DNA of 36,603 bases. Source: a virus. The first letter of the stretch is position 1, and each line of letters starts with the position of its first letter. Under the pieces are notes generated by a model. The model was given only the letters and a program-made list of their open reading frames with translations, did no database searches and was not told the DNA's origin. Positions 4,680-34,301 of the stretch are shown piece after piece. Both the position numbers and the translations under genes were made by a program. The stretch covers positions 1 through 36,603 of IMG/VR virus record IMGVR_UViG_3300037493_005225; one strand, given 5' to 3'.

Positions 4680-5125
4680 ACCAACTCAATGTTTCCTGCT
4701 TTGATATCCCAAGCCAGATCGACACGACGACCGCCAGCAGCGATGAACTGCTCATAGGTCATTCCTTCGCTGATGAGATTCCAGCTCTTCCAGCCATTTG
4801 TGCCTTCGCGACGTGGATTTTCAGCAGATAGCTTAACGAGCGTTTTGCCAGCCAGCGAGCTAGTGCGGCCACGAGCGGATTTTTCAGTTGTCGGTGCGAT
4901 TGGTGCTTCAGTCATTTTCTTGGTTTTTGTTTCTTTGCTGGTTGGACCAGCGAGTTCATTGTGTGCTTTGATCAATTCGGCAACACGCTGTTCAGCTGTC
5001 GCACGATCCCGAAATTTCAAGATGTGCTTGCTGCCAGAGTTATCATTATAGAATTTAACCAACTCAGCAGTTGTTGATGAGCTGATGTTGATGTTGATTG
5101 TGCCGATTATGCTAATTGATTTCAT
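4676..5125 (-). CDS. Conserved phage protein with DUF3489-like N-terminus
   Basis: A 149-residue protein of unknown function, first gene of the unit that continues with the SNF2-like helicase. The N-terminal half contains L-V-K-F-Y-N and FRDRATAEQRVAELI, which resembles the amino part of DUF3489-type proteins. A Lys/Thr/Ala-rich linker follows (about 60-90). The C-terminal 40 residues, with W-K-S-W, MTYEQFIAAGGRR and DLAWDIK, look like a compact DNA-binding-type module; that reading is inference. The start at 5125 is supported by an AGAAAGA tract 10 bp upstream and a promoter-hairpin leader. It ends in a GTGA overlap with the helicase. Confidence 0.65.
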   Translation of the reverse strand: MKSISIIGTININISSSTTAELVKFYNDNSGSKHILKFRDRATAEQRVAELIKAHNELAGPTSKETKTKKMTEAPIAPTTEKSARGRTSSLAGKTLVKLSAENPRREGTNGWKSWNLISEGMTYEQFIAAGGRRVDLAWDIKAGNIELV

Positions 5126-5134
5126 GTTAGTTTT

Positions 5135-5213
5135 TCTTTCTGTATTTTTAGTTAGTTCGAGGAACCATTCCTTGAACTACTGATACTATTCTTCGGATTC
5201 TTTAAATGGGCAA
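5135..5213 (-). promoter_or_regulatory. Promoter plus 5' hairpin leader (minus-strand copy)
   Basis: Read on the minus strand: -35 TTGCCC (5213-5208), 17-bp spacer, -10 AATAGT (5190-5185). A hairpin at 5176-5156 follows, with a 9-bp stem carrying one A-C mismatch and the loop context GGAATGGTTCC. After it come an A-rich stretch and AGAAAGA (5141-5135), just before the ATG at 5125. It lies between the polymerase gene and the helicase operon, so that operon has its own promoter. The layout matches copies at 18150, 21364, 22232 and 22864 on the other strand. Confidence 0.65.
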
Positions 5214-13776: not shown

Positions 13777-13808
13777 TCGCTGGCTGGCCATGTAAGACCA
13801 GCCAGCGA
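13777..13808 (-). promoter_or_regulatory. Leader hairpin before the FAD oxidoreductase
   Basis: A perfect 11-bp stem, TCGCTGGCTGG paired with CCAGCCAGCGA, around a 10-nt loop. It lies between the stop of the SSB-like gene and the start of the flavoprotein gene. On the minus strand it is followed by an A-rich stretch and AGAAAGA, then the ATG. This is the same hairpin, A-rich tract and start layout as the other leaders. No clear -35/-10 pair precedes it, so it may be an internal processing or stabilising element, or a terminator. Confidence 0.6.
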
Positions 13809-15805: not shown

Positions 15806-15834
15806 ATGATGCTCGACTTTTTCTTTCTCGGCAA
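15806..15834 (-). promoter_or_regulatory. Promoter of the minus-strand replication operon
   Basis: On the minus strand TTATTGTTGCCG is followed, after 17 bp, by CATCAT. The -35 TTGCCG (15834-15829), the spacer length and the TTGTTGCCGA context match the promoters at 18150 and 21364. A long A/T tract lies just upstream (15837-15858), like an UP element. The leader before the ATG at 15766 is about 30-35 nt and lacks the long hairpin of the other copies. Confidence 0.55.
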
Positions 15835-18149: not shown

Positions 18150-18207
18150 TTGCCGAAATTCGATAAATCAGAAATACTCTGCTCACCATCGGAATGGTTC
18201 TGGTGGT
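18150..18207 (+). promoter_or_regulatory. Promoter plus 5' hairpin leader, copy A
   Basis: TTGCCG (18150-18155), 17-bp spacer, AATACT (18173-18178), then a hairpin at 18185-18207. The 10-bp stem ACCATCGGAA/TTCTGGTGGT pairs fully only if two G-U wobbles are allowed, which points to selection on RNA. The loop is TGG. The expected transcript start lies close to the base of the hairpin. ACAAAAATACAAAAAGATA and the ATG at 18233 follow. Confidence 0.65.
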
Positions 18208-18232
18208 AACAAAAATACAAAAAGATAAAAAT

Positions 18233-18403
18233 ATGAAAACATTCAACTACCTCGCAAAAAATAAAATCACAGGTCTTTATTTTGATGGCGATTCATTCAA
18301 AGCAGACCGAGCAAATGCTAAAATCATCGATGTTAACAAAGCATTTTTTAAGTTGGTCTGGAATTACAATGACAATCTGGAACTCATAGATCTGGAAAAC
18401 TAA
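18233..18403 (+). CDS. Small protein of unknown function (56 aa)
   Basis: A 56-residue protein that I do not recognise. It is rich in Asn, Lys and aromatic residues, with no cysteines and no membrane segment. I choose the ATG at 18233 because AAAAAGATAAAAAT stands right before it and the promoter-hairpin leader ends there; the reading frame is open further upstream, but that would read through the hairpin. The gene is followed after 23 bp by another small gene with the same A-rich start context. Confidence 0.6.
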   Translation: MKTFNYLAKNKITGLYFDGDSFKADRANAKIIDVNKAFFKLVWNYNDNLELIDLEN

Positions 18404-18426
18404 AAGGCAACCAGAAAGATAAAAAT

Positions 18427-18633
18427 ATGAATCGTTACGCTGCAATCCTCCAAATCTGCGACGCTGTCGTAGAATCAATCAAAGCTGCTGGGCCAATGGG
18501 TGCTCCCTCAGGAGTCATCTATGCATCGCTGATGCAATTTGGCTGCAACTTGTCACAATATGAATCTTTGATCGGAATCCTCGTCAAGGCTGGCAAAATC
18601 CGCCAGCAAGGTGATCTCCTCTTCGCAATCTGA
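18427..18633 (+). CDS. Small winged-helix-like protein (68 aa)
   Basis: A 68-residue protein. GAPSGVIYASLMQFGCNLS followed by YESLIGILVKAGKIRQQGDLLF has the spacing of a winged-helix domain: two helices, a recognition helix, then a wing around K-I-R-Q-Q-G-D. This could be a small DNA-binding regulator of the phage early region; the fold is inferred from pattern only. CCAGAAAGATAAAAAT precedes the ATG. Confidence 0.6.
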   Translation: MNRYAAILQICDAVVESIKAAGPMGAPSGVIYASLMQFGCNLSQYESLIGILVKAGKIRQQGDLLFAI

Positions 18634-18677
18634 ACAATGTTCCTCCCAGAACACCAACCACAACCAGAAAGATAAAA

Positions 18678-18941
18678 ATGAATATAACAGCTCCACTAAT
18701 TCACAGCAATGGCTCTTCAGCAAAAACACTCTTTGCTGAATACCAAGAAGCATACGATGCTGTGCGTGATGCCATATCAAAATTCGCCATGATTGAATTT
18801 CACAGTCGTGACTACTATGTGCAAGACGCAGGTGCTTGGACGAAAGCACTTGATCATCGCACTGAGCAGCGTCAAGCATTGGGCAAGGTCGAAGACTACT
18901 TGTTCGAGCATTTAATTGCAATTCAAAACCAAGAAAAATGA
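18678..18941 (+). CDS. Conserved small phage protein (87 aa)
   Basis: An 87-residue helical protein. It starts with a short ...LIHSNGSSAKTLF segment and continues with AYDAVRDAISKFAMIEFHSRDYYVQ, a pattern (helix, then R-D-Y-Y) I associate with a small phage family of unknown function. ACCAGAAAGATAAAA lies directly before the ATG. Its stop overlaps the next start (ATGA), the first of several coupled small genes. Confidence 0.65.
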   Translation: MNITAPLIHSNGSSAKTLFAEYQEAYDAVRDAISKFAMIEFHSRDYYVQDAGAWTKALDHRTEQRQALGKVEDYLFEHLIAIQNQEK

Positions 18942-19114
18942 ACATCAAGACAGCACAGGATAAAATGGACAACTTGGAAACGCTATGGCTTTGTGCCAAG
19001 GAGCAAGGCCATTCGTTGGGGATCATGCTTGATGAGGATGGTTATTACATCATTGGCCAGCGCATGTTTGCTGAATACAAGGATGCGCTCAAATACATCG
19101 TCAATGAACTATGA
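18938..19114 (+). CDS. Small protein of unknown function (58 aa)
   Basis: A 58-residue reading frame linked by ATGA overlaps to the genes on both sides. It has a helical first half (NLETLWLCAKEQG) and a second half L-D-E-D-G-Y-Y-I-I-G-Q-R-M-F that reads like a short beta hairpin, followed by a helix. I do not recognise the family. The coupling at both ends is the main support for it being a gene. Confidence 0.6.
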   Translation: MNIKTAQDKMDNLETLWLCAKEQGHSLGIMLDEDGYYIIGQRMFAEYKDALKYIVNEL

Positions 19115-19290
19115 AGTTGATGATCTTTTCAATGTTCTTGCTCTCAGGCTGCACAAGCATGAGCGTGCAGTTTACCAAGGAGGAGCGAATCTTCCAGTGC
19201 AAAGGAGAATGTGTAAAGGGTCTCCAAGCTCAGAACGATGTTCTTGAGCAACAAGTCTATGCCTCAATCCTTCAGAGCATGCTCAAATGA
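19111..19290 (+). CDS. Small lipoprotein (59 aa)
   Basis: A 59-residue protein with a lipoprotein signal: MKLMIFSMFLLSGC, where L-S-G-C is a lipobox and Cys14 the lipid site. The mature part is about 45 residues with two more Cys (residues 30 and 34) and a helical end. It would sit in a bacterial membrane, probably the outer membrane of a Gram-negative host. Size and lipobox recall Rz1-type spanins, but no partner Rz gene is adjacent, and superinfection exclusion is an alternative. Coupled by ATGA at both ends. Confidence 0.7.
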   Translation: MKLMIFSMFLLSGCTSMSVQFTKEERIFQCKGECVKGLQAQNDVLEQQVYASILQSMLK

Positions 19291-19412
19291 GCAAGAAGAT
19301 TCCCTGCAAGAATTGCAACAAGTCATCCGCAGTGGCCAAGAAGCGCATGCGCGAAATCGAACGCAAGGAGCTCGCACTCCTCAAAGCAAGAATCAAGAAG
19401 CGCAACTATTGA
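19287..19412 (+). CDS. Very small basic protein (41 aa)
   Basis: A 41-residue, strongly basic protein, with one C-x-x-C pair (PCKNC at 6-10) and a Lys/Arg-rich helix (KKRMREIERKELALLKARIKKR). It is coupled to the lipoprotein gene by ATGA. It could bind nucleic acid, or be a half zinc-knuckle; neither can be shown. The next gene starts 1 bp after its stop. Confidence 0.5.
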   Translation: MSKKIPCKNCNKSSAVAKKRMREIERKELALLKARIKKRNY

Positions 19413-19413
19413 A

Positions 19414-19692
19414 ATGAACTACGATTGTCAAGCATGTGGAGCGTGTTGTGCGTTCAAGTGGTCTTGGCCACTTTTGCGCAAGGACAGGCGTGATGCTGAC
19501 AATATCCCTGAGCACATGAAGCATGCCAGCCTTCCGCTGATGCGCACAGTGGACGGGAGGTGTGTGGCATTGTGCGGGGATGTGGGTAAGGCGTGTTCAT
19601 GCACTGTTTACCTAGTCAGGCCACAAGCTTGCCGATCGTTTGTCCCAGGATCCGACCTATGCCTCGAAGCAAGAGCAAAGTTCAAATTGTAA
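19414..19692 (+). CDS. YkgJ-like cysteine cluster protein
   Basis: A 92-residue protein of the YkgJ (CxxCGxCC) cysteine cluster type. The N-terminus has DCQACGACCAFKW; the middle has RCVALCGDVGKACSCTVYLVRPQACRSF, and a final Cys follows at G-S-D-L-C. This spacing of about eight Cys and the C-x-V-Y-x-x-R-P-x-x-C-R signature are those of the family, thought to bind metal (zinc or Fe-S). The cellular role is unknown. It lies in a run of cysteine-rich small genes. Confidence 0.85.
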   Translation: MNYDCQACGACCAFKWSWPLLRKDRRDADNIPEHMKHASLPLMRTVDGRCVALCGDVGKACSCTVYLVRPQACRSFVPGSDLCLEARAKFKL

Positions 19693-19880
19693 GGAATTGC
19701 CGACATAGTGCAGAGTTTGAGCAATATGTGCTCAGTCGTGATCTGGCAGAAGAACCAATGCTGATAGCAAGACACCTCATGCAGGGACACATGTCTGTTG
19801 ATGGTGAAGATATGCGCAGAACAACAAGAAGAGTGGAAACAATACGCAGAACAAACAGGAAACCAAAATATGGAAATTAA
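19659..19880 (+). CDS. Doubtful small basic protein (73 aa)
   Basis: A 73-residue frame starting within the end of the YkgJ-like gene (34-bp overlap) and ending 80 bp inside the next gene. It is the only sizeable plus-strand frame covering 19693-19800. The N-terminal part is ordinary; the tail is rich in Arg and Thr, which can arise when a frame reads across another gene. I give it modest weight; the alternative is a 108-bp intergenic gap. Confidence 0.35.
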   Translation: MPRSKSKVQIVRNCRHSAEFEQYVLSRDLAEEPMLIARHLMQGHMSVDGEDMRRTTRRVETIRRTNRKPKYGN

Positions 19881-20202
19881 ATATTATTCAGAACGCAATC
19901 CAGGTGATGGTGAGTGGGGAGTGGTCGGGACATTCCTCAACTTCCAAATCCGCGAAGAAGATGTCAGCGACGACGAGTGCTACCAGACTTCATGGTCTGT
20001 AAAAATACTTGGTGAATGGGTTGAGGTAAACACATTCAACACAGGAAAGGTATTTTACTCCGAGGAAGCCATTGAGCGCATCGTCAGGCATCTCACGAAA
20101 TCACTGAACAATGAGCGACAATCAAAAATTGAATTGCTCAATCTTATCAAAGAAAGATGGGAGTATGACAATGACAAGGTGCCAGACACAGCAACAGATT
20201 AA
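19801..20202 (+). CDS. Phage protein of unknown function (133 aa)
   Basis: A 133-residue acidic protein. The core alternates strands and loops, with E-W-G-V-V-G-T-F-L-N-F and TSWSVKILGEWVEVNTFN, then a helical end (EEAIERIVRHLTKSL). No family is recognised. The start is uncertain: ATG at 19801, or the ATG at 19870 (M-E-I-K-Y-Y), which would remove most of the overlap with the doubtful upstream frame. Its last 38 bp overlap the next gene. Confidence 0.6.
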   Translation: MVKICAEQQEEWKQYAEQTGNQNMEIKYYSERNPGDGEWGVVGTFLNFQIREEDVSDDECYQTSWSVKILGEWVEVNTFNTGKVFYSEEAIERIVRHLTKSLNNERQSKIELLNLIKERWEYDNDKVPDTATD

Positions 20203-20350
20203 TGAGCTTTATGCTCAAGGCAAGATTAGCCGTGAGGAGTGGAGCCAGAGGTTTGATGAATTGTCCAGCAGCCAATGGAATGCTGCTGGGCCAGTGAAAC
20301 TAAAAAAAGAAAGGAAAAAAGAAAATGAGCCAGTTCACGATGACAGGTGA
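20165..20350 (+). CDS. Small SHOCT-like protein (61 aa)
   Basis: A 61-residue protein. INELYAQGKISREEWSQRFDEL matches the short two-helix SHOCT pattern (L-x-x-G-x-I-[ST]-x-E-E-[FWY]) often found at protein ends. A Lys/Glu-rich tail follows. I choose the ATG at 20165 because AGAAAGATGGGAG precedes it; an upstream in-frame ATG at 20111 would enlarge the overlap with the previous gene. Its end overlaps the next gene by 26 bp, and its AAAGAAAGG tract likely serves as that gene's ribosome site. Confidence 0.6.
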   Translation: MTMTRCQTQQQINELYAQGKISREEWSQRFDELSSSQWNAAGPVKLKKERKKENEPVHDDR

Positions 20351-20903
20351 GTTACCAAAGCACAAATATGTGCTTGTTGATAGGGAATTTGTCGAGTGCC
20401 AAGTTGACAAAAAGGATTCACGCTTCATGCCAGCGGTCTGGTATGGGCTTGTGTGCATTCCTGGCAGAGCTTGGGGATGCACAGTGATGTTGGAAAGTGG
20501 TGCTGTTTATCGCAACCTGCCTCCGCATGCTTTGGCCTTCAACTACGACCCAGAAGCTGTCGACTGGTCAATCGAATTGGCACAACTGTGGGACTGTTAC
20601 AGCGAACGCTTCACAACGCTTGAATACAAGTTCCTCAAGAGCCAGATGTGCGAGGCTTTGATTGGCGAACAGAGGTTGAGAGGTTGGTATTTGTTCAGTG
20701 CGTCGCAAATTGGTGACGGATGGACAGAAGAGCCAAGCCAGAACAAAGAATTCATGTTCATTGAGCTGGAGTGTGGCAGATTGACCATTCAGCCGACAAA
20801 CAAAGTTCTGTTCATGGACAAGTCATTTTGCAGCAGTGATGGCAATGTGCCAAAGTTGGTCCTGCAAGAAACAATTTACTCATGCGAGGGATTTGAACAA
20901 TGA
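20325..20903 (+). CDS. Conserved phage protein (192 aa)
   Basis: A 192-residue protein. IPGRAWGCTVMLESGAVYRNLPPHAL is the most distinctive part; I recognise similar text from environmental phage proteins of unknown function. The protein is rich in Trp and Cys, with a mix of strand and helix, no signal and no membrane helix. GAAAGGAAAAAAGAAA precedes the ATG at 20325. Its stop overlaps the next start (ATGA). Confidence 0.65.
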   Translation: MSQFTMTGELPKHKYVLVDREFVECQVDKKDSRFMPAVWYGLVCIPGRAWGCTVMLESGAVYRNLPPHALAFNYDPEAVDWSIELAQLWDCYSERFTTLEYKFLKSQMCEALIGEQRLRGWYLFSASQIGDGWTEEPSQNKEFMFIELECGRLTIQPTNKVLFMDKSFCSSDGNVPKLVLQETIYSCEGFEQ

Positions 20904-21121
20904 GTGCCAAAGAAATCAATTGTGGCACATGTCTGCCACCAGAAGCTTACATGCGTCTGTGGTCATCAGCATCACAACACCAGCAACCAAAATTCAAAAG
21001 TTCCATATTCCCAATAAAAAATGAAGTGCTCCGAATGCCAACAAAAAACAAAAGTCGTGGACAGTCGTCAGTTGACCAGCAAAACTGGTCAGCCATTTAC
21101 TTGGCGCAGGTTGAAGTGTGA
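20900..21121 (+). CDS. Doubtful small protein with a C-x-x-C pair (73 aa)
   Basis: A 73-residue frame coupled by ATGA to the gene upstream, with INCGTCLPPEAYMRLW near the start. The first 40 residues look ordinary; the rest, rich in Ser and Gln, overlaps the next gene by 101 bp. This may be the real coupled gene with a long overlap, or only its first part may matter. The coupling argues for it, the long overlap against. Confidence 0.4.
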   Translation: MSAKEINCGTCLPPEAYMRLWSSASQHQQPKFKSSIFPIKNEVLRMPTKNKSRGQSSVDQQNWSAIYLAQVEV

Positions 21122-21353
21122 GAATGAACACATAAGCTACAGCCATGAAGTGCACGAAAAGATTTCTCCAATCCATGAGAAGGTTCGCTACATAATTCGT
21201 TGTGGAGAGTTGAAAGGATCAGGCACTGCCAAGAAGAAAGTCAGAAAGGAAAGAGCTGCACAATTTGAAGAAATTGTTGTGATGAAGGCTGGGATAAATA
21301 TAAAAAAGAGCAGCCCAGAGTGGTTGAAGAAGATAGCTTTGCAACTTGAGTGA
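21021..21353 (+). CDS. Zinc-ribbon protein with NrdR-like N-terminus
   Basis: A 110-residue protein. The N-terminus M-K-C-S-E-C followed by V-V-D-S-R-Q and RRLKCENEHISY copies the layout of the NrdR zinc ribbon (MKCPxC...VVDSR...RRR-C), though the fourth ligand may be His rather than Cys. The rest is lysine-rich and helical, and the NrdR ATP-cone is absent. NrdR represses ribonucleotide reductase genes; whether this ribbon binds DNA is unknown. A promoter-hairpin leader begins right after its stop. Confidence 0.7.
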   Translation: MKCSECQQKTKVVDSRQLTSKTGQPFTWRRLKCENEHISYSHEVHEKISPIHEKVRYIIRCGELKGSGTAKKKVRKERAAQFEEIVVMKAGINIKKSSPEWLKKIALQLE

Positions 21354-21363
21354 AAAATAGTTG

Positions 21364-21425
21364 TTGCCGAACTGATCAAAATCAGAGAGAGTAGTTTCGC
21401 AGTCGGAATGGTTCCGACTGCGAAA
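21364..21425 (+). promoter_or_regulatory. Promoter plus 5' hairpin leader, copy B
   Basis: TTGCCG (21364-21369), 17-bp spacer with CTGAT-CAAA-ATCAG inside it, and a weak -10 GAGAGT (21387-21392). A perfect 14-bp stem follows: TTTCGCAGTCGGAA, loop TGG, TTCCGACTGCGAAA (21395-21425). ACAAAAATACAGAAAGATA and the ATG at 21450 come next. It is the strongest hairpin of the set. The -10 is poor, so an activator may be needed, or a phage factor may read the CTGAT...ATCAG palindrome. Confidence 0.65.
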
Positions 21426-21449
21426 CAAAAATACAGAAAGATAAAAATT

Positions 21450-22145
21450 ATGAAAGACAAAGCCACCCACTACGGAACATGCCAACTCTGCGGATCATTT
21501 CAAAAGCTCCCAGGAGGAGTTCTTGCCTCGCACGGATACAACATCAGCTGGGGATCGTTTGTTGGCACGTGCCACGGATCTGGTCGTGCTCCATTTGAGC
21601 AGTCAAAAGCATATGTTGAAGCTGAGATCGCCAATGGCAAAAGAATCCTTGCCAACTTGGCACCTGTTGAGAATCCTGGTTACATGGTTGTTTCCCGCAT
21701 GCCTCAGTTCCTGTCCGACGAGGACAAGGCCAAGAAGGTTGAGTGGTCAAAATACTGCAACACAAAAAACAGCTGGGAGCGATTCATCGCCTACCAAGTG
21801 CCACGCTGCGCAGCATGGGCACCCAAGGAGCTGACACCAGTGGTTGAGGAGGATGCTCGTCGTGATGCTTCAAAGAAGTCAGTAAAAGGCATCCGCGAGT
21901 TGGCTCGCATGCGTGACCTGACCAAGCGCGAGTTGATCAAGGCTGTTGAGCAAATTGAGAAGGCTGTGTCCTGCTGGCCAGAGCTCTCCTATCCCACCAC
22001 TGCCAATGCGCACAAGTATGCCAACCTCGCTCGTTCGGCTGGCGAAGTTGAGTTGGCCGACAACGTGACCAGCAAGCTCGCAGCCTTCAAAGCTGCCAAG
22101 GCTAGCTACGACGCTGCCAAGCACTGGTGTGCCCCTTGTCGCTAG
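21450..22145 (+). CDS. Zinc-finger phage protein (231 aa)
   Basis: A 231-residue protein. The N-terminal part CQLCGSFQKLPGGVLASHGY, followed by W-G-S-F-V-G-T-C-H-G-S-G and P-F-E, is a zinc-finger pattern I know from phage proteins of unknown function: two Cys, then His, then Cys. The middle and end are helical and Ala/Lys-rich, ending C-A-P-C-R. The start at 21450 is set by CAGAAAGATAAAAAT just upstream. It is the only gene between two promoter leaders and has a terminator-like hairpin after it, so it may be transcribed alone. Confidence 0.75.
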   Translation: MKDKATHYGTCQLCGSFQKLPGGVLASHGYNISWGSFVGTCHGSGRAPFEQSKAYVEAEIANGKRILANLAPVENPGYMVVSRMPQFLSDEDKAKKVEWSKYCNTKNSWERFIAYQVPRCAAWAPKELTPVVEEDARRDASKKSVKGIRELARMRDLTKRELIKAVEQIEKAVSCWPELSYPTTANAHKYANLARSAGEVELADNVTSKLAAFKAAKASYDAAKHWCAPCR

Positions 22146-22172
22146 CAGCCTTTAAAATCGTTTTTATTCACT

Positions 22173-22203
22173 GGCTGTGGGGTTCTATCCCCCATGGCCT
22201 TTT
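22173..22203 (+). terminator. Terminator-like hairpin
   Basis: A 10-bp stem, GGCTGTGGGG with CCCCATGGCC (two adjacent G-T wobbles), a 7-nt loop, then TTTT before GGGG. It lies 27 bp after the stop of the zinc-finger gene and before the next promoter leader. The T tract is short, so termination may be partial. Confidence 0.5.
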
Positions 22204-22231
22204 GGGGCTGAAAATAATTTGAACAATTTTA

Positions 22232-22289
22232 TTGCCGAACTGATCAAAATCAGAAATAATGCTCCCACTGTCGGAATGACTCCGACGGT
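22232..22289 (+). promoter_or_regulatory. Promoter plus 5' hairpin leader, copy C
   Basis: TTGCCG (22232-22237), 17-bp spacer, AATAAT (22255-22260), the best -10 of the set. A hairpin at 22267-22289 follows, with a 9-bp stem ACTGTCGGA/TCCGACGGT including one T-G wobble and loop ATGAC. AAAAAGATAAAAAG and the ATG at 22315 come next. The spacer contains CTGAT-CAAA-ATCAG exactly as in copy B. Confidence 0.7.
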
Positions 22290-22314
22290 AACAAAAATTC
22301 AAAAAGATAAAAAG

Positions 22315-22854
22315 ATGAGCAAAATTAAATCCAGCGACAAACAAAAACCAGAAGCCTACCTCCGATTCACGCCAGACACGGAAAGGCACAACGAGAACAA
22401 CGACTGCACAGTCATAGCACTGGCTGCGGTGACTGGTGTCACGTATGATGAGGCACATGCTGCCTGTCGTGCACAAGGACGGAAGAATGGGAAAGGTTTG
22501 TTGCGCTCGAGCATGCATCAAGCACTTCGCAGTCTTGGGTTCGAAACTTTGGTCGTGAAGAGGGCAGAAATCATCGCCAAGTATCCTGGCAACCACAAGA
22601 ATCTTGGTTCTGTCACAACTCACCACCCAGCTCGCTTCAAGTCTGTTTGGCGCGATGGCAACAACTACCTTCTGCACCAGAAAGGGCACGTGAGTGCGTG
22701 CGTCAATGGCGAGCTTCAGGACTGGGCTGTTGGCCGCATGAAGCGTGTGCAGCTTGTTTGTAAGGTGCAGAAAATCGGAGGAGGAACACCGATGATTCCT
22801 CAAAATCAGGCACAGAGTTATTTGGCCAAAGTCACGCGGATGGCAAATGCCTAA
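22315..22854 (+). CDS. Papain-like-fold phage protein (Cys/His pattern)
   Basis: A 179-residue protein. NENNDCTVIALAAVTGVTYDEAH near residues 26-48 puts a Cys at the start of a helix, then RKNGKGL; later LLHQKGHVSACVNGELQDWA supplies His and Asp. The order Cys, His, Asp is that of papain-fold cysteine proteases or transferases such as C39-like proteins, and similar sequences are frequent in phages. Whether it cleaves anything is not known. The start at 22315 follows AAAAAGATAAAAAG and the leader hairpin. Transcribed from its own promoter. Confidence 0.7.
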   Translation: MSKIKSSDKQKPEAYLRFTPDTERHNENNDCTVIALAAVTGVTYDEAHAACRAQGRKNGKGLLRSSMHQALRSLGFETLVVKRAEIIAKYPGNHKNLGSVTTHHPARFKSVWRDGNNYLLHQKGHVSACVNGELQDWAVGRMKRVQLVCKVQKIGGGTPMIPQNQAQSYLAKVTRMANA

Positions 22855-22863
22855 AAATAGTTA

Positions 22864-22923
22864 TTGCCCAACTGACCATAATCAGCAAAACTACGCTCGC
22901 TGTCGGAATGGTTCCGACAGCGA
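22864..22923 (+). promoter_or_regulatory. Promoter plus 5' hairpin leader, copy D
   Basis: TTGCCC (22864-22869), 17-bp spacer with CTGA...TCAG, AAAACT (22887-22892). A perfect 12-bp stem follows: TCGCTGTCGGAA, loop TGG, TTCCGACAGCGA (22897-22923). CCAGAAAGATAAAAAG and the ATG at 22944 come next. The lower stem differs from copy B at several places, always with matching changes on the other arm. Confidence 0.7.
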
Positions 22924-22943: not shown

Positions 22944-24206
22944 ATGACCACAATAATTACCATCGAAAACTACTCCCGCCAGCACTTCGCAAAGTTCTTC
23001 AAGAAGCTGGCTCGCAAATGCACACGTTTGAGCATTGAGCATGCTCCGACCTACACGATCCTTGAGAACACTGTCCGTGAAGCTGACAAGATGCACATGG
23101 TTAAGGTTGAAGGCGACATTCACAGCCACAAGTATCAAGTCACTGTTGTTGATGTTGAGGTGACAGTGCCTGAGCCAGTGCGTGTGGCTGGTCAGTGGGA
23201 GTGCTTTGCTGTGCTTGAGCGCAATGACAATGGCACGCTGGAAGCCATGACCACTGGTCATAAGAACCAGCAGGATGCCAAGGCATTCATCGCCAGCGGC
23301 AATATGTGCTGCGGCCACTGCAACACCAAGCGTGTGCGCAACACAACGCTGCTCTTCCGCAGCGAGGACACAGGTGTGCTGATGCAAGTCGGCAAAGAGT
23401 GCGCCAAAGAATATGGCAGCGACGCTGCTCTGCTCATGGCTCAGTTTGAGTTCATCAGCGTCATCACCAGCATCCATGACGATGGCGAAGGTGACGAGGG
23501 ATTCTGGCATGGTGGTGGCGAACTCCGCATGAACAGGGTGCTGGACATGAATGAGGTGCTGGAAGTGCTGGCTGTTGACCAGATCAAACTCGCTCGCTCA
23601 TTTGTCAAGACCTACACTTGGGACGAGGTTTACCAAGTCAATGTGCGCAACACAAACTGCACCAAGAACGCCATCAAGCGCATGATGAACGATTGGTGCT
23701 CGCTGGACGAAAAGCCATGCTCCGAGGCACGTGCCAAGCTCGACGAGGCTGTCAAGTATTTCACCTCCCTGCCGACCGAGGAGCTTGAGGCCAGCGAATA
23801 CATTGCCGACTTGGCTGCTGCACTCGGCAATGACTACATTTCTGAGCGCAAGTTGGGGCTGGTTGTTTCGATGGTCAAAGCCTACAACACTGCAATGATC
23901 AAGAAAGAGGCAGTGGTGCCTACGACTCCTGCTCCTGCTGGCAAGACGATCGTCAAAGGACGCATCGCCAGCACCAAGGAGGTGACCAGTGACTGGGGCA
24001 CAACTTGGAAGATGCTCGTTGTGCTTGTTGATGGCAACAAAGTGTGGTGCTCGATTCCTGAAGGTGTCACAGGTGACACTGGTGAGGAAGTCACCTTCAA
24101 GGCTACCTTTGAGCGCAGCAGCAAGGATGCGCACTTTTCCTTTGGCTCCCGCCCATCCCTCAAGATCAACAAGAAGGATCTCAAAACTCTTCCATCAATT
24201 ATCTGA
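22944..24206 (+). CDS. Conserved phage/plasmid protein with zinc motif and OB-like end (420 aa)
   Basis: A 420-residue protein of a type found in phages and plasmids, function unknown. Around 120-155 it has CCGHCNTKRVRNTTLLF, then VGKECAKEY, a zinc-binding arrangement of C-x-x-C and a later Cys. The middle is helical. The last 90 residues (GKTIVKGRIASTKEV, W-K-M-L-V-V-L-V-D-G-N-K-V-W-C) look like an OB fold or small beta barrel, so nucleic-acid binding is plausible. The start at 22944 follows CCAGAAAGATAAAAAG. It is transcribed from leader D, with another hairpin leader after its stop. Confidence 0.75.
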   Translation: MTTIITIENYSRQHFAKFFKKLARKCTRLSIEHAPTYTILENTVREADKMHMVKVEGDIHSHKYQVTVVDVEVTVPEPVRVAGQWECFAVLERNDNGTLEAMTTGHKNQQDAKAFIASGNMCCGHCNTKRVRNTTLLFRSEDTGVLMQVGKECAKEYGSDAALLMAQFEFISVITSIHDDGEGDEGFWHGGGELRMNRVLDMNEVLEVLAVDQIKLARSFVKTYTWDEVYQVNVRNTNCTKNAIKRMMNDWCSLDEKPCSEARAKLDEAVKYFTSLPTEELEASEYIADLAAALGNDYISERKLGLVVSMVKAYNTAMIKKEAVVPTTPAPAGKTIVKGRIASTKEVTSDWGTTWKMLVVLVDGNKVWCSIPEGVTGDTGEEVTFKATFERSSKDAHFSFGSRPSLKINKKDLKTLPSII

Positions 24207-24227: not shown

Positions 24228-24254
24228 GCCACGCTCGTTCTATCCGAGCGTGGC
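24228..24254 (+). promoter_or_regulatory. Leader hairpin, copy G (no clear promoter)
   Basis: A perfect 10-bp stem, GCCACGCTCG and CGAGCGTGGC, with a 7-nt loop, followed by CAACAGAAAGACAAAAATAC and the ATG at 24286. Position and downstream tract match the other leaders, but the stem and loop differ and no TTGCC/-10 pair is seen upstream. It may act as a processing or stability element, or as a weak terminator after the 420-residue gene. Confidence 0.5.
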
Positions 24255-32280: not shown

Positions 32281-33525
32281 ATGGACAAATCAGTAACTGA
32301 TGAAGGAGTTCCGAGCGAGCTCGATCTTGGCAATGTGCCATCACCAAGTGTTGATGATATCAGCAATTTGGATAGCGCACTTGATGATGCAGGAGTTTTC
32401 GATGGTGACAAAGAGCCTGCTAAAATTGATGAGAATGCACAGACACAACCTACAGACGAATCAGGAGTCGATCAAAATCAAGCTCCTGCTCCAGAAACAG
32501 ATGCTGCTGGACAGCAGACGAAGAAGGAAGAAATTCCCGACATTGATCTTGACAACATTCAGCCACCTGCTGACATTAGTCCGAGGAATTTAGTCAACTT
32601 CAATAAGCTGCGCGAAGTTGCCAAGCACTACAAAGAGCAAGCAGAGTCTGTTCCAAAATACGAAGAGTATATTGAATATCTCAAGCAGCAGCAAAGTCAA
32701 CCGCCAGAGCAGCTTCTTGCCGAGCTGGAAGATCATCGTAGATTCCGCAAGATATTTGATGCTGAGAATGATCCTGAATTCCAACAGCAATTCAACAATC
32801 GCATCACAACACTTGACACTGATGTCATTGAGATCCTGAAGAAAAATGGCTTGCCAGAGGAAACTGAGAACAAACTAAAGTCAGTCGGCTTGGACAAGAT
32901 CCCTGCTGATTGGTGGGAGGAAAGTGTCCTTCCGAAATTGAATTTCTTGGAACGCGAGCGTGTTCAGAAGAAGCTCGCAGAACGAGCTGATGTTGTCGAT
33001 GCAAAACAGAAAGAGGTGGAGAAGTTTAGCGGTCGTAAAGATGAATACTTAGCAGAGCAGCAGCAATTGGCTCAGGAAGCTGTAGCACAAGAGAACAACC
33101 AGATCTATGGCCATCTTGATGTGATGACGCAGCAATTGCCTGTAGCAAGATATATTCCAATGCCTGAGAATGCTTCCAAGGAAGATCATGCAAGAATATC
33201 TGCCCATAATGCTACAGTTTCTGAAATGGAAAATCACTTCCAATCAGCACTCCATGCAAGTGATCCAAAAGAACGCACAGAAGTTGCCATGGCTGCAGTT
33301 GCCAGCATTTATTTTGCCAAGGAAATTGAAGCACTCCAGCAACAGCTCGCATCTGCCAACGGACAAGCAAGCAAATTCGCCAAAGAACTTGAAGCTGTCC
33401 GTTCTGCTGGACGAGCACCTTCGCCAAGGTCTGGCGTTCGCAAATCGAATGAAGGTGTTGATCAGATGAAGCTGTCTGACGAAGATGCCATCGAACAAGG
33501 TCTTCTTGCTGCGGAAGGAATCTGA
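32281..33525 (+). CDS. Capsid scaffolding protein
   Basis: A 414-residue acidic, helical protein in the usual scaffold place. The N-terminal 110 residues are Asp/Pro-rich and likely disordered, with several short acidic D-x-D segments. The middle has E-Q-A-E-S-V-P-K-Y-E and other heptad-like stretches (LQQQLASANGQASKFAKELEAV). A basic patch SPRSGVRKS near 388-396 could bind the capsid protein, as scaffold C-termini do. Its stop overlaps the next start (ATGA). The capsid gene follows only after four glycan-type genes. Confidence 0.78.
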   Translation: MDKSVTDEGVPSELDLGNVPSPSVDDISNLDSALDDAGVFDGDKEPAKIDENAQTQPTDESGVDQNQAPAPETDAAGQQTKKEEIPDIDLDNIQPPADISPRNLVNFNKLREVAKHYKEQAESVPKYEEYIEYLKQQQSQPPEQLLAELEDHRRFRKIFDAENDPEFQQQFNNRITTLDTDVIEILKKNGLPEETENKLKSVGLDKIPADWWEESVLPKLNFLERERVQKKLAERADVVDAKQKEVEKFSGRKDEYLAEQQQLAQEAVAQENNQIYGHLDVMTQQLPVARYIPMPENASKEDHARISAHNATVSEMENHFQSALHASDPKERTEVAMAAVASIYFAKEIEALQQQLASANGQASKFAKELEAVRSAGRAPSPRSGVRKSNEGVDQMKLSDEDAIEQGLLAAEGI

Positions 33526-34301
33526 TGAAAGTCGCCAAAAAGAAAAAAGAACCACTGGCTTCAACCAGTGGTTCTTCCGAGTGGTTGGGTCGCGATTTGT
33601 TTGTTGGTTTCCCATGCTACAAGCAAACAAATCCTGTGACAGCATGGTGTTTGTTGGCGATGGCTCTTGACATTGGCAAGGAAAAGATTCGCTTTGACAT
33701 GGAAATTGGCGATGCGATGATCTATCATGCACGCAATAGTCTTGCTATGAAATTCATGAAGACAGAAGCAAAATGGCTTTTGTTCATTGATGATGATATG
33801 ATTGTTCCGATTGGTCGTCCTCAGTTCATGCGCCAGATGTGCCGACTGCCAAACGACTATTCCGAATCAGCATTGGCACTCAGCACAATCCATAGGTTGA
33901 TCGAGCACGACAAGCCAATTGTTGGGGCGACATACTTTGGCCGCCACATTGATGGTCGTGCTATCAATAGCTTGCACAATGATTCTGAATACAGGGAGCG
34001 AGTGAATTCATTTGCCGACTCTGTCATGCCATGCAATTGGCTCGGAACTGGCTGCATGCTGATAAAGCGCGAAGTGTTCGAAACTATGATGACTCAGTTC
34101 CCAGAACTTGCGCCAGAAAATGACGAGTTGCCATGGAACTTCTTTCAACCTGACACGGATGGTGCTGGCGAAGACATTGCATTTTGTCGACGAGCTCGTG
34201 AGTGTGGTTTTCAGCCACATGTTGATACCAAGTTACAGGCCATCCATGTTGGCTATGGGACATACGGAGTTCACACATCAAACTTGAGCAAACCTCTATG
34301 A
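33525..34301 (+). CDS. Glycosyltransferase-like protein (GT-A type)
   Basis: A 258-residue protein. VGFPCYKQTNPVTAWCLLAM opens the catalytic part, and LLFIDDDMIVP near 86-96 is the DxD sugar-nucleotide motif. GAGEDIAFCRRARECGF near 216-232 matches the late ED motif of GT-A glycosyltransferases. I expect an inverting GT2-like enzyme; donor and acceptor are unknown. The first 20 residues are Lys/Ser-rich and include a 12-bp DNA hairpin. It is coupled to the scaffold gene by ATGA and to the methyltransferase by ATGA. Confidence 0.78.
   Translation: MKVAKKKKEPLASTSGSSEWLGRDLFVGFPCYKQTNPVTAWCLLAMALDIGKEKIRFDMEIGDAMIYHARNSLAMKFMKTEAKWLLFIDDDMIVPIGRPQFMRQMCRLPNDYSESALALSTIHRLIEHDKPIVGATYFGRHIDGRAINSLHNDSEYRERVNSFADSVMPCNWLGTGCMLIKREVFETMMTQFPELAPENDELPWNFFQPDTDGAGEDIAFCRRARECGFQPHVDTKLQAIHVGYGTYGVHTSNLSKPL
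33547..33576 (-). terminator. Strong hairpin with T-run on the minus strand
   Basis: A perfect 12-bp stem, AAGAACCACTGG and CCAGTGGTTCTT, with loop CTTCAA. On the minus strand it is followed by TTTTCTTTTT, as in an intrinsic terminator; on the plus strand no T-run follows. It lies in the first codons of the glycosyltransferase gene. It may stop antisense transcription or fold in the plus-strand mRNA between scaffold and glycosyltransferase. Confidence 0.5.

Follow-up and report, generated by a model that had tools for sequence, protein, structure and literature searches.

The leaders and their setting

The DNA analysed here, referred to throughout as the window, corresponds to a linear IMG/VR virus record of 36.6 kb (36,603 nucleotides), whose leftward genes encode a PolIII-alpha-type DNA polymerase, helicases, a primase, and Pam3-like proteins, and whose rightward genes comprise small ORFs and a terminase. 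Among cultured phages, the best match of its DNA polymerase reaches ~40% identity. Two IMG/VR contigs, L004 and L005, overlap at 99.8% and represent one sister phage with ~84% DNA identity to the window, and a third phage (L153) is the next relative, with a polymerase identity of 65%. The DNA polymerase match of this third phage at L052:10001-13624 covers 3.6 kb for 943 residues, and may thus contain an intein or intron. ARAGORN found no tRNA in the window, from which the tRNA-Met (CAT) of the sister phage (L005:11980-12053, between the DNA polymerase and leader E) is absent.

Five intergenic sites in the window carry the same composite element, and the positions given for them in the preliminary description hold. 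Each consists of TTGCC followed by G or C, a spacer of exactly 17 bp, a -10 hexamer of the form nAnAnT (with A, A, and T invariant at positions 2, 4, and 6 across the five copies), 6-7 nt, and then a hairpin; spacers and hexamers are also as originally listed. On the plus strand, copy A has its promoter at 18150-18178 (TTGCCG, 17 bp, AATACT) and its 5' hairpin at 18185-18207 (10 bp including two G-U pairs, with a UGG triloop, from the predicted +1), ahead of a gene with its ATG at 18233. Copy B has its promoter at 21364-21392 (TTGCCG, 17 bp, GAGAGT) and a hairpin of 10 bp from the predicted +1 at 21399-21421, followed by an A-rich tail with a weak ribosome-binding site (AGAAAGATAAAAAT, 21422-21449) and the ATG at 21450. 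Just upstream of copy C, a terminator-like hairpin was recognised by reading at 22173-22199 (+); the equivalent hairpin before copy B2 of the sister phage combines a 10-bp stem with T6. Copy C itself comprises a promoter at 22232-22260 (TTGCCG, 17 bp, AATAAT) and a hairpin at 22267-22289 (9 bp, AUGAC loop), with the ATG at 22315, and copy D a promoter at 22864-22892 (TTGCCC, 17 bp, AAAACT) and a hairpin of 10 bp from the predicted +1 at 22899-22921, with the ATG at 22944. Copy E lies on the minus strand directly 3' of the DNA polymerase gene, with its promoter at 5185-5213 (TTGCCC, 17 bp, AATAGT), its hairpin at 5153-5179 (12 positions per arm), and the ATG of its gene at 5125.

The predicted +1 was counted 6 nt past the -10, a register predicted from sequence. 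By this count, the stem of copies A-D opens with +1 itself, a purine, and in copy E +1 falls within one nucleotide of the first stem base, the hairpin there starting at -1/+1, in agreement with the earlier proposal that the hairpins begin near the transcription start. Other details of that proposal had to be corrected. The palindrome of copy B measures 15 bp in the DNA (21394-21426), only 10 bp of which lie downstream of +1, and the stem of copy E is interrupted, on the transcribed strand, by one A.C mismatch. The sequence GGAATGGTTCC, thought to be kept in four of the five copies, is exact only in three (B, D, and E), since copy A ends in TTCT and copy C reads GGAATGACTCC. The conserved cap follows the -10 by 12 nt in copies A-D and by 13 nt in copy E. 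The A-rich tail after the hairpin (AACAAAAATACAGAAAGATAAAAAT-ATG), which had been overlooked, is conserved too, with an equivalent tail in every copy; its ribosome-binding part is also found without a hairpin, at 18413 and 18666.

The pattern TTGCC-N34-38-GGAAYGRYTC occurs five times in the window versus 0.005 times on average over 200 dinucleotide shuffles, and the hairpins have stabilities of -8.2 to -17 kcal/mol, with MFE z-scores of -2.7 to -5.8. Over the copies of the window and the sister phage, the probability that +1 is paired is at least 0.73 in 8 out of 10, and nucleotides 26-45 of the leaders are 79-97% unpaired; when longer segments were folded, the hairpin persisted in most copies. 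In the sister phage, copy II_B2 leaves +1 unpaired, and copy II_A can form a competing fold with the coding sequence.

Several other candidates were set aside. A further match, at 4912-4983 (-), falls within coding DNA and has no conserved counterpart in the sister phage. A leader peptide starting from an AUG in the cap, which is in frame with the gene in copies A-D, was rejected because the sister copies break either the AUG or the frame: II_C has ACG in its place, the frame in II_E ends after three codons, and in II_A and II_B1 the AUG is out of frame with the annotated start. An RNase III site was likewise rejected, a 10-bp stem being short for this enzyme. The window also holds hairpins of other kinds. 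A strong one (TCGCTGGCTGG/CCAGCCAGCGA) is present at 13777-13808 (-) between two genes, just before a ribosome-binding site and without a TTGCC promoter, and its counterpart in the sister phage (L004:9239-9266) keeps the stem and has a changed loop. A 10-bp hairpin at 24228-24254 (+) follows a stop codon and precedes AACAACAGAAAGACAAAAAT and a gene start, without a TTGCC promoter or T run, and a perfect 12-bp hairpin at 33547-33576 (+) lies inside gene 33525-34301, at the start of its coding sequence.

Covariation and conservation

The sister phage contributes five more copies, at site A, twice at site B (II_B1 and II_B2), and at sites C and E, which makes ten over two phages. In these, 94% of the cells pair versus 78% after shuffling (0/500), two-sided changes occur at six of the ten stem pairs, and the covariation score is 0.544, compared with 0.222 for shuffled copies and at most 0.140 with slid partners. 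RNAalifold, unaided, returned the same helix from the ten copies. The covariation in related phages on which the preliminary description had staked its reading was thus looked for and found, as compensatory changes between orthologous copies: from the window to the sister phage, CTGTC/GACGG of copy C becomes CCATC/GGTGG, and the second pair of copy E turns from A-T to T-A.

Among the eight copies of the A-D type, pairing is found in 7-8 at each position from +1 to +9, in six at +10 (which reflects the C-type loop), and in three at -1. The stem is therefore fitted to the predicted 5' end of the transcript, and this fall in pairing at the predicted +1 argues that selection acts on the transcript and not on the DNA duplex. 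When E-type copies are compared with the others, 3-7 of the 17 spacer positions and 0-2 of the six lower-stem positions agree, versus 8-11 of the 11 nucleotides of the cap. The cap has been kept while the spacer decayed and the lower stem became unrelated, so that stem structure and cap sequence look to be under separate constraint.

One-sided departures from pairing are about equally often G-U and A-C, meaning that the pair counts alone do not separate selection on the RNA from templated (quasipalindrome) mutation, and the presence of the full form in two phage lineages implies a modest number of independent changes. The promoter-leader architecture is well supported by the sequences, and its function is what we infer from them.

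Distribution in this phage and its relatives

The leader had been proposed to be phage-wide, but only five transcription units carry the hairpin. A sibling promoter (TTGCCG-17-CATCAT) at 15806-15834 (-), which heads the leftward operon and is kept in the sister phage (L004:7200-7272), has no conserved hairpin, and the hairpin would thus be an add-on to some promoters rather than a part of promoter recognition.

At the copy B site of the sister phage, an extra gene and a terminator-like hairpin are present between II_B1 and II_B2. This additional unit (L004:1240-1757) reads as a leader, a small ORF, and a terminator inserted as a cassette, and it suggests that the shared leaders may serve as recombination joints. 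The module fronts small gene cassettes and, by its appearance, would travel with them.

A covariance model built on the ten copies and run on the third phage detected two homologous leaders (36.4 and 27.0 bits; E 1.8e-4 and 0.009 per genome), at L153:233 and at L153:16987, the latter behind the DNA polymerase as in copy E. Their stems are weaker (GC-AA-GGGA..UCCC-AA-GC), and GGAAUAACUCC is present even there. In two more distant phages (L013 and L019), the site behind the DNA polymerase shows TTGACT-16-CATAGT or CATTTT, 9 nt, and a hairpin of unrelated sequence (GUUAGC-AAUUCU-GCURGC) followed by an A-rich tail. A second copy is present in L013, at 5809, and position 668 of L019 holds a related one whose loop differs. 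A hairpin near the predicted +1 would thus recur with unrelated sequence in distant phages, in a few cases. Matches to the marine-type hairpin in L159 and L161 were dismissed as coding look-alikes, and the genome-wide survey of generic promoter-like sites in the DNA-polymerase relatives gave no excess of +1 hairpins.

A loose pattern scan matched 47 contigs, most of which have no flanking stem and were set aside; stricter scans of IMG/VR returned the sister phage only, the pattern of the third phage matched just its own contig, and the GTDB scan found nothing. Leader B had no blastn match in 50,697 phage records, and Rfam gave no matches in the window at the gathering score.

Comparison with known systems

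The closest parallels are the stabilising stem-loops of ompA and papA in Escherichia coli and of aprE in Bacillus subtilis, where a hairpin at or near the 5' end is also followed by a single-stranded leader and an open ribosome-binding site. As in the ompA type, the stem begins at or next to the predicted 5' end, and the hairpin is stable and apparently selected for pairing, at the free energies given above and with six two-sided pairs. Contrary to those cases, here we find a phage multi-copy family fused to its promoter at a fixed distance, with a conserved cap and a covarying lower stem, and with stabilisation as a presumed function. What looks new is not the principle, which is known, but a family of several promoter-linked copies with a fixed cap.

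Phage systems offer further points of comparison. The leader RNA of T7 gene 10, whose 5' end can form a short stem-loop, raises expression, as the leaders described here might; however, it is made by T7 RNA polymerase and has another sequence, whereas here a sigma70-like promoter precedes. The promoters of the N4 virion RNA polymerase are short triloop hairpins with a changing stem, the hairpin being the promoter, whereas here the hairpin lies downstream of a complete -35/-10, every copy being preceded by TTGCC-17-nAnAnT; the proteins scanned, a subset of the ORFs of a partial contig, included no recognisable RNA polymerase. The translational operator of T4 gp43 also combines a conserved loop with a stem differing between phages, but is a single site overlapping the ribosome-binding region and not a promoter-linked multi-copy leader. 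The put RNA of HK022 is likewise a structure with which early phage transcripts begin, although it has two stem-loops over ~70 nt (PMC9378689) as well as a triplex, compared with the single 23-27-nt hairpin and unstructured A-rich tail found here. Nor do the leaders resemble an intrinsic terminator or attenuator, since the stem is followed by AACAAAAATA and not by a U run.

Possible functions of the leaders

The interpretation that we favour is that of a protective 5'-terminal leader. The sigma70-type promoter would start transcription at the first base of the hairpin, in such a way that the mRNA would begin base-paired, with almost no free 5' nucleotide, and the A-rich tail with its weak ribosome-binding site would stay open to ribosomes. 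Both RppH and RNase E of E. coli depend on a single-stranded 5' terminus, and the RppH of B. subtilis requires at least two unpaired nucleotides (PMC3997798). A paired 5' end would be expected to hinder nucleases that sense the 5' end (RNase E or RNase J) as well as pyrophosphate removal of the RppH type, and this hindered entry into decay may result in longer-lived transcripts; more speculatively, the near-invariant cap (GGAAYRRYUCC) might contact a phage or host factor or act as a stable folding nucleus. Because the transcript would start paired, with an open ribosome-binding site downstream, we consider the most likely function, with about even confidence, to be that the hairpin shields the mRNA start and leaves the ribosome site free, the cap being possibly read by a factor. 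Against this, pure protection would need no conserved cap.

It is mainly the conservation of the cap that keeps in play another, less probable reading, namely that the hairpin is chiefly a site for a phage or host RNA-binding protein controlling translation or decay of a regulon, the stem merely presenting the cap. The cap is retained where spacer and lower stem are at background, GGAAUAACUCC is kept as far as the third phage, and T4 gp43 provides the precedent of a phage protein that reads a loop kept constant on a variable stem (PMC3014915). However, such a site need not start exactly at +1 or span 10 bp, the hairpin, ~25 nt ahead of the start codon, leaves the ribosome-binding site uncovered, and the proteins scanned included no recognisable candidate for an RNA-binding protein. 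That the element acts at the DNA level with no RNA role, as a palindromic operator, an extruded N4-style hairpin promoter, or a palindrome kept perfect by templated mutation, seems unlikely: the palindrome of copy B does extend 5 bp upstream of +1, and templated correction can yield matching changes in both arms, but pairing ends at the predicted +1 in most copies, there is a normal and exactly spaced -35/-10, and the scanned proteins include no recognisable RNA polymerase. An operator in particular is disfavoured by arms that vary freely while keeping their complementarity.

We regard as improbable an antitermination mechanism of the put or nut type, by which the nascent hairpin would modify RNA polymerase to pass the terminators between cassettes. 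Terminator-like hairpins do occur there, the leaders lie immediately downstream of phage promoters, and HK022 putL likewise begins at the 5' end of its transcript (PMC9378689), but the size and single hairpin of these leaders do not fit a putRNA, and cassettes that restart from their own promoter past a terminator make read-through less necessary. A functionless hairpin, shared by recent duplicates spread with gene cassettes and alike through common descent, is very doubtful; the spacers of copies A-D are alike too, and the sister phage has its extra cassette at the copy B site, yet when the E-type copies are set beside the rest, the spacer agrees no better than background, and the cap, the -35, and the pairing are still there.

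A more tentative reading is that the hairpin could be a 5' tag of the phage, whose cap would be read by a specific factor that sorts tagged transcripts for protection or preferential translation, with related phages swapping the tag sequence and keeping the hairpin at +1. If the leaders work as proposed, this phage would have mRNA protection built into a reusable promoter part, and the conservation of the cap would point to a factor worth seeking. The ten stems sharing one cap form a compact natural series on 5'-end pairing versus mRNA life, and the promoter, leader, and ribosome-binding site would be usable together as a portable part.
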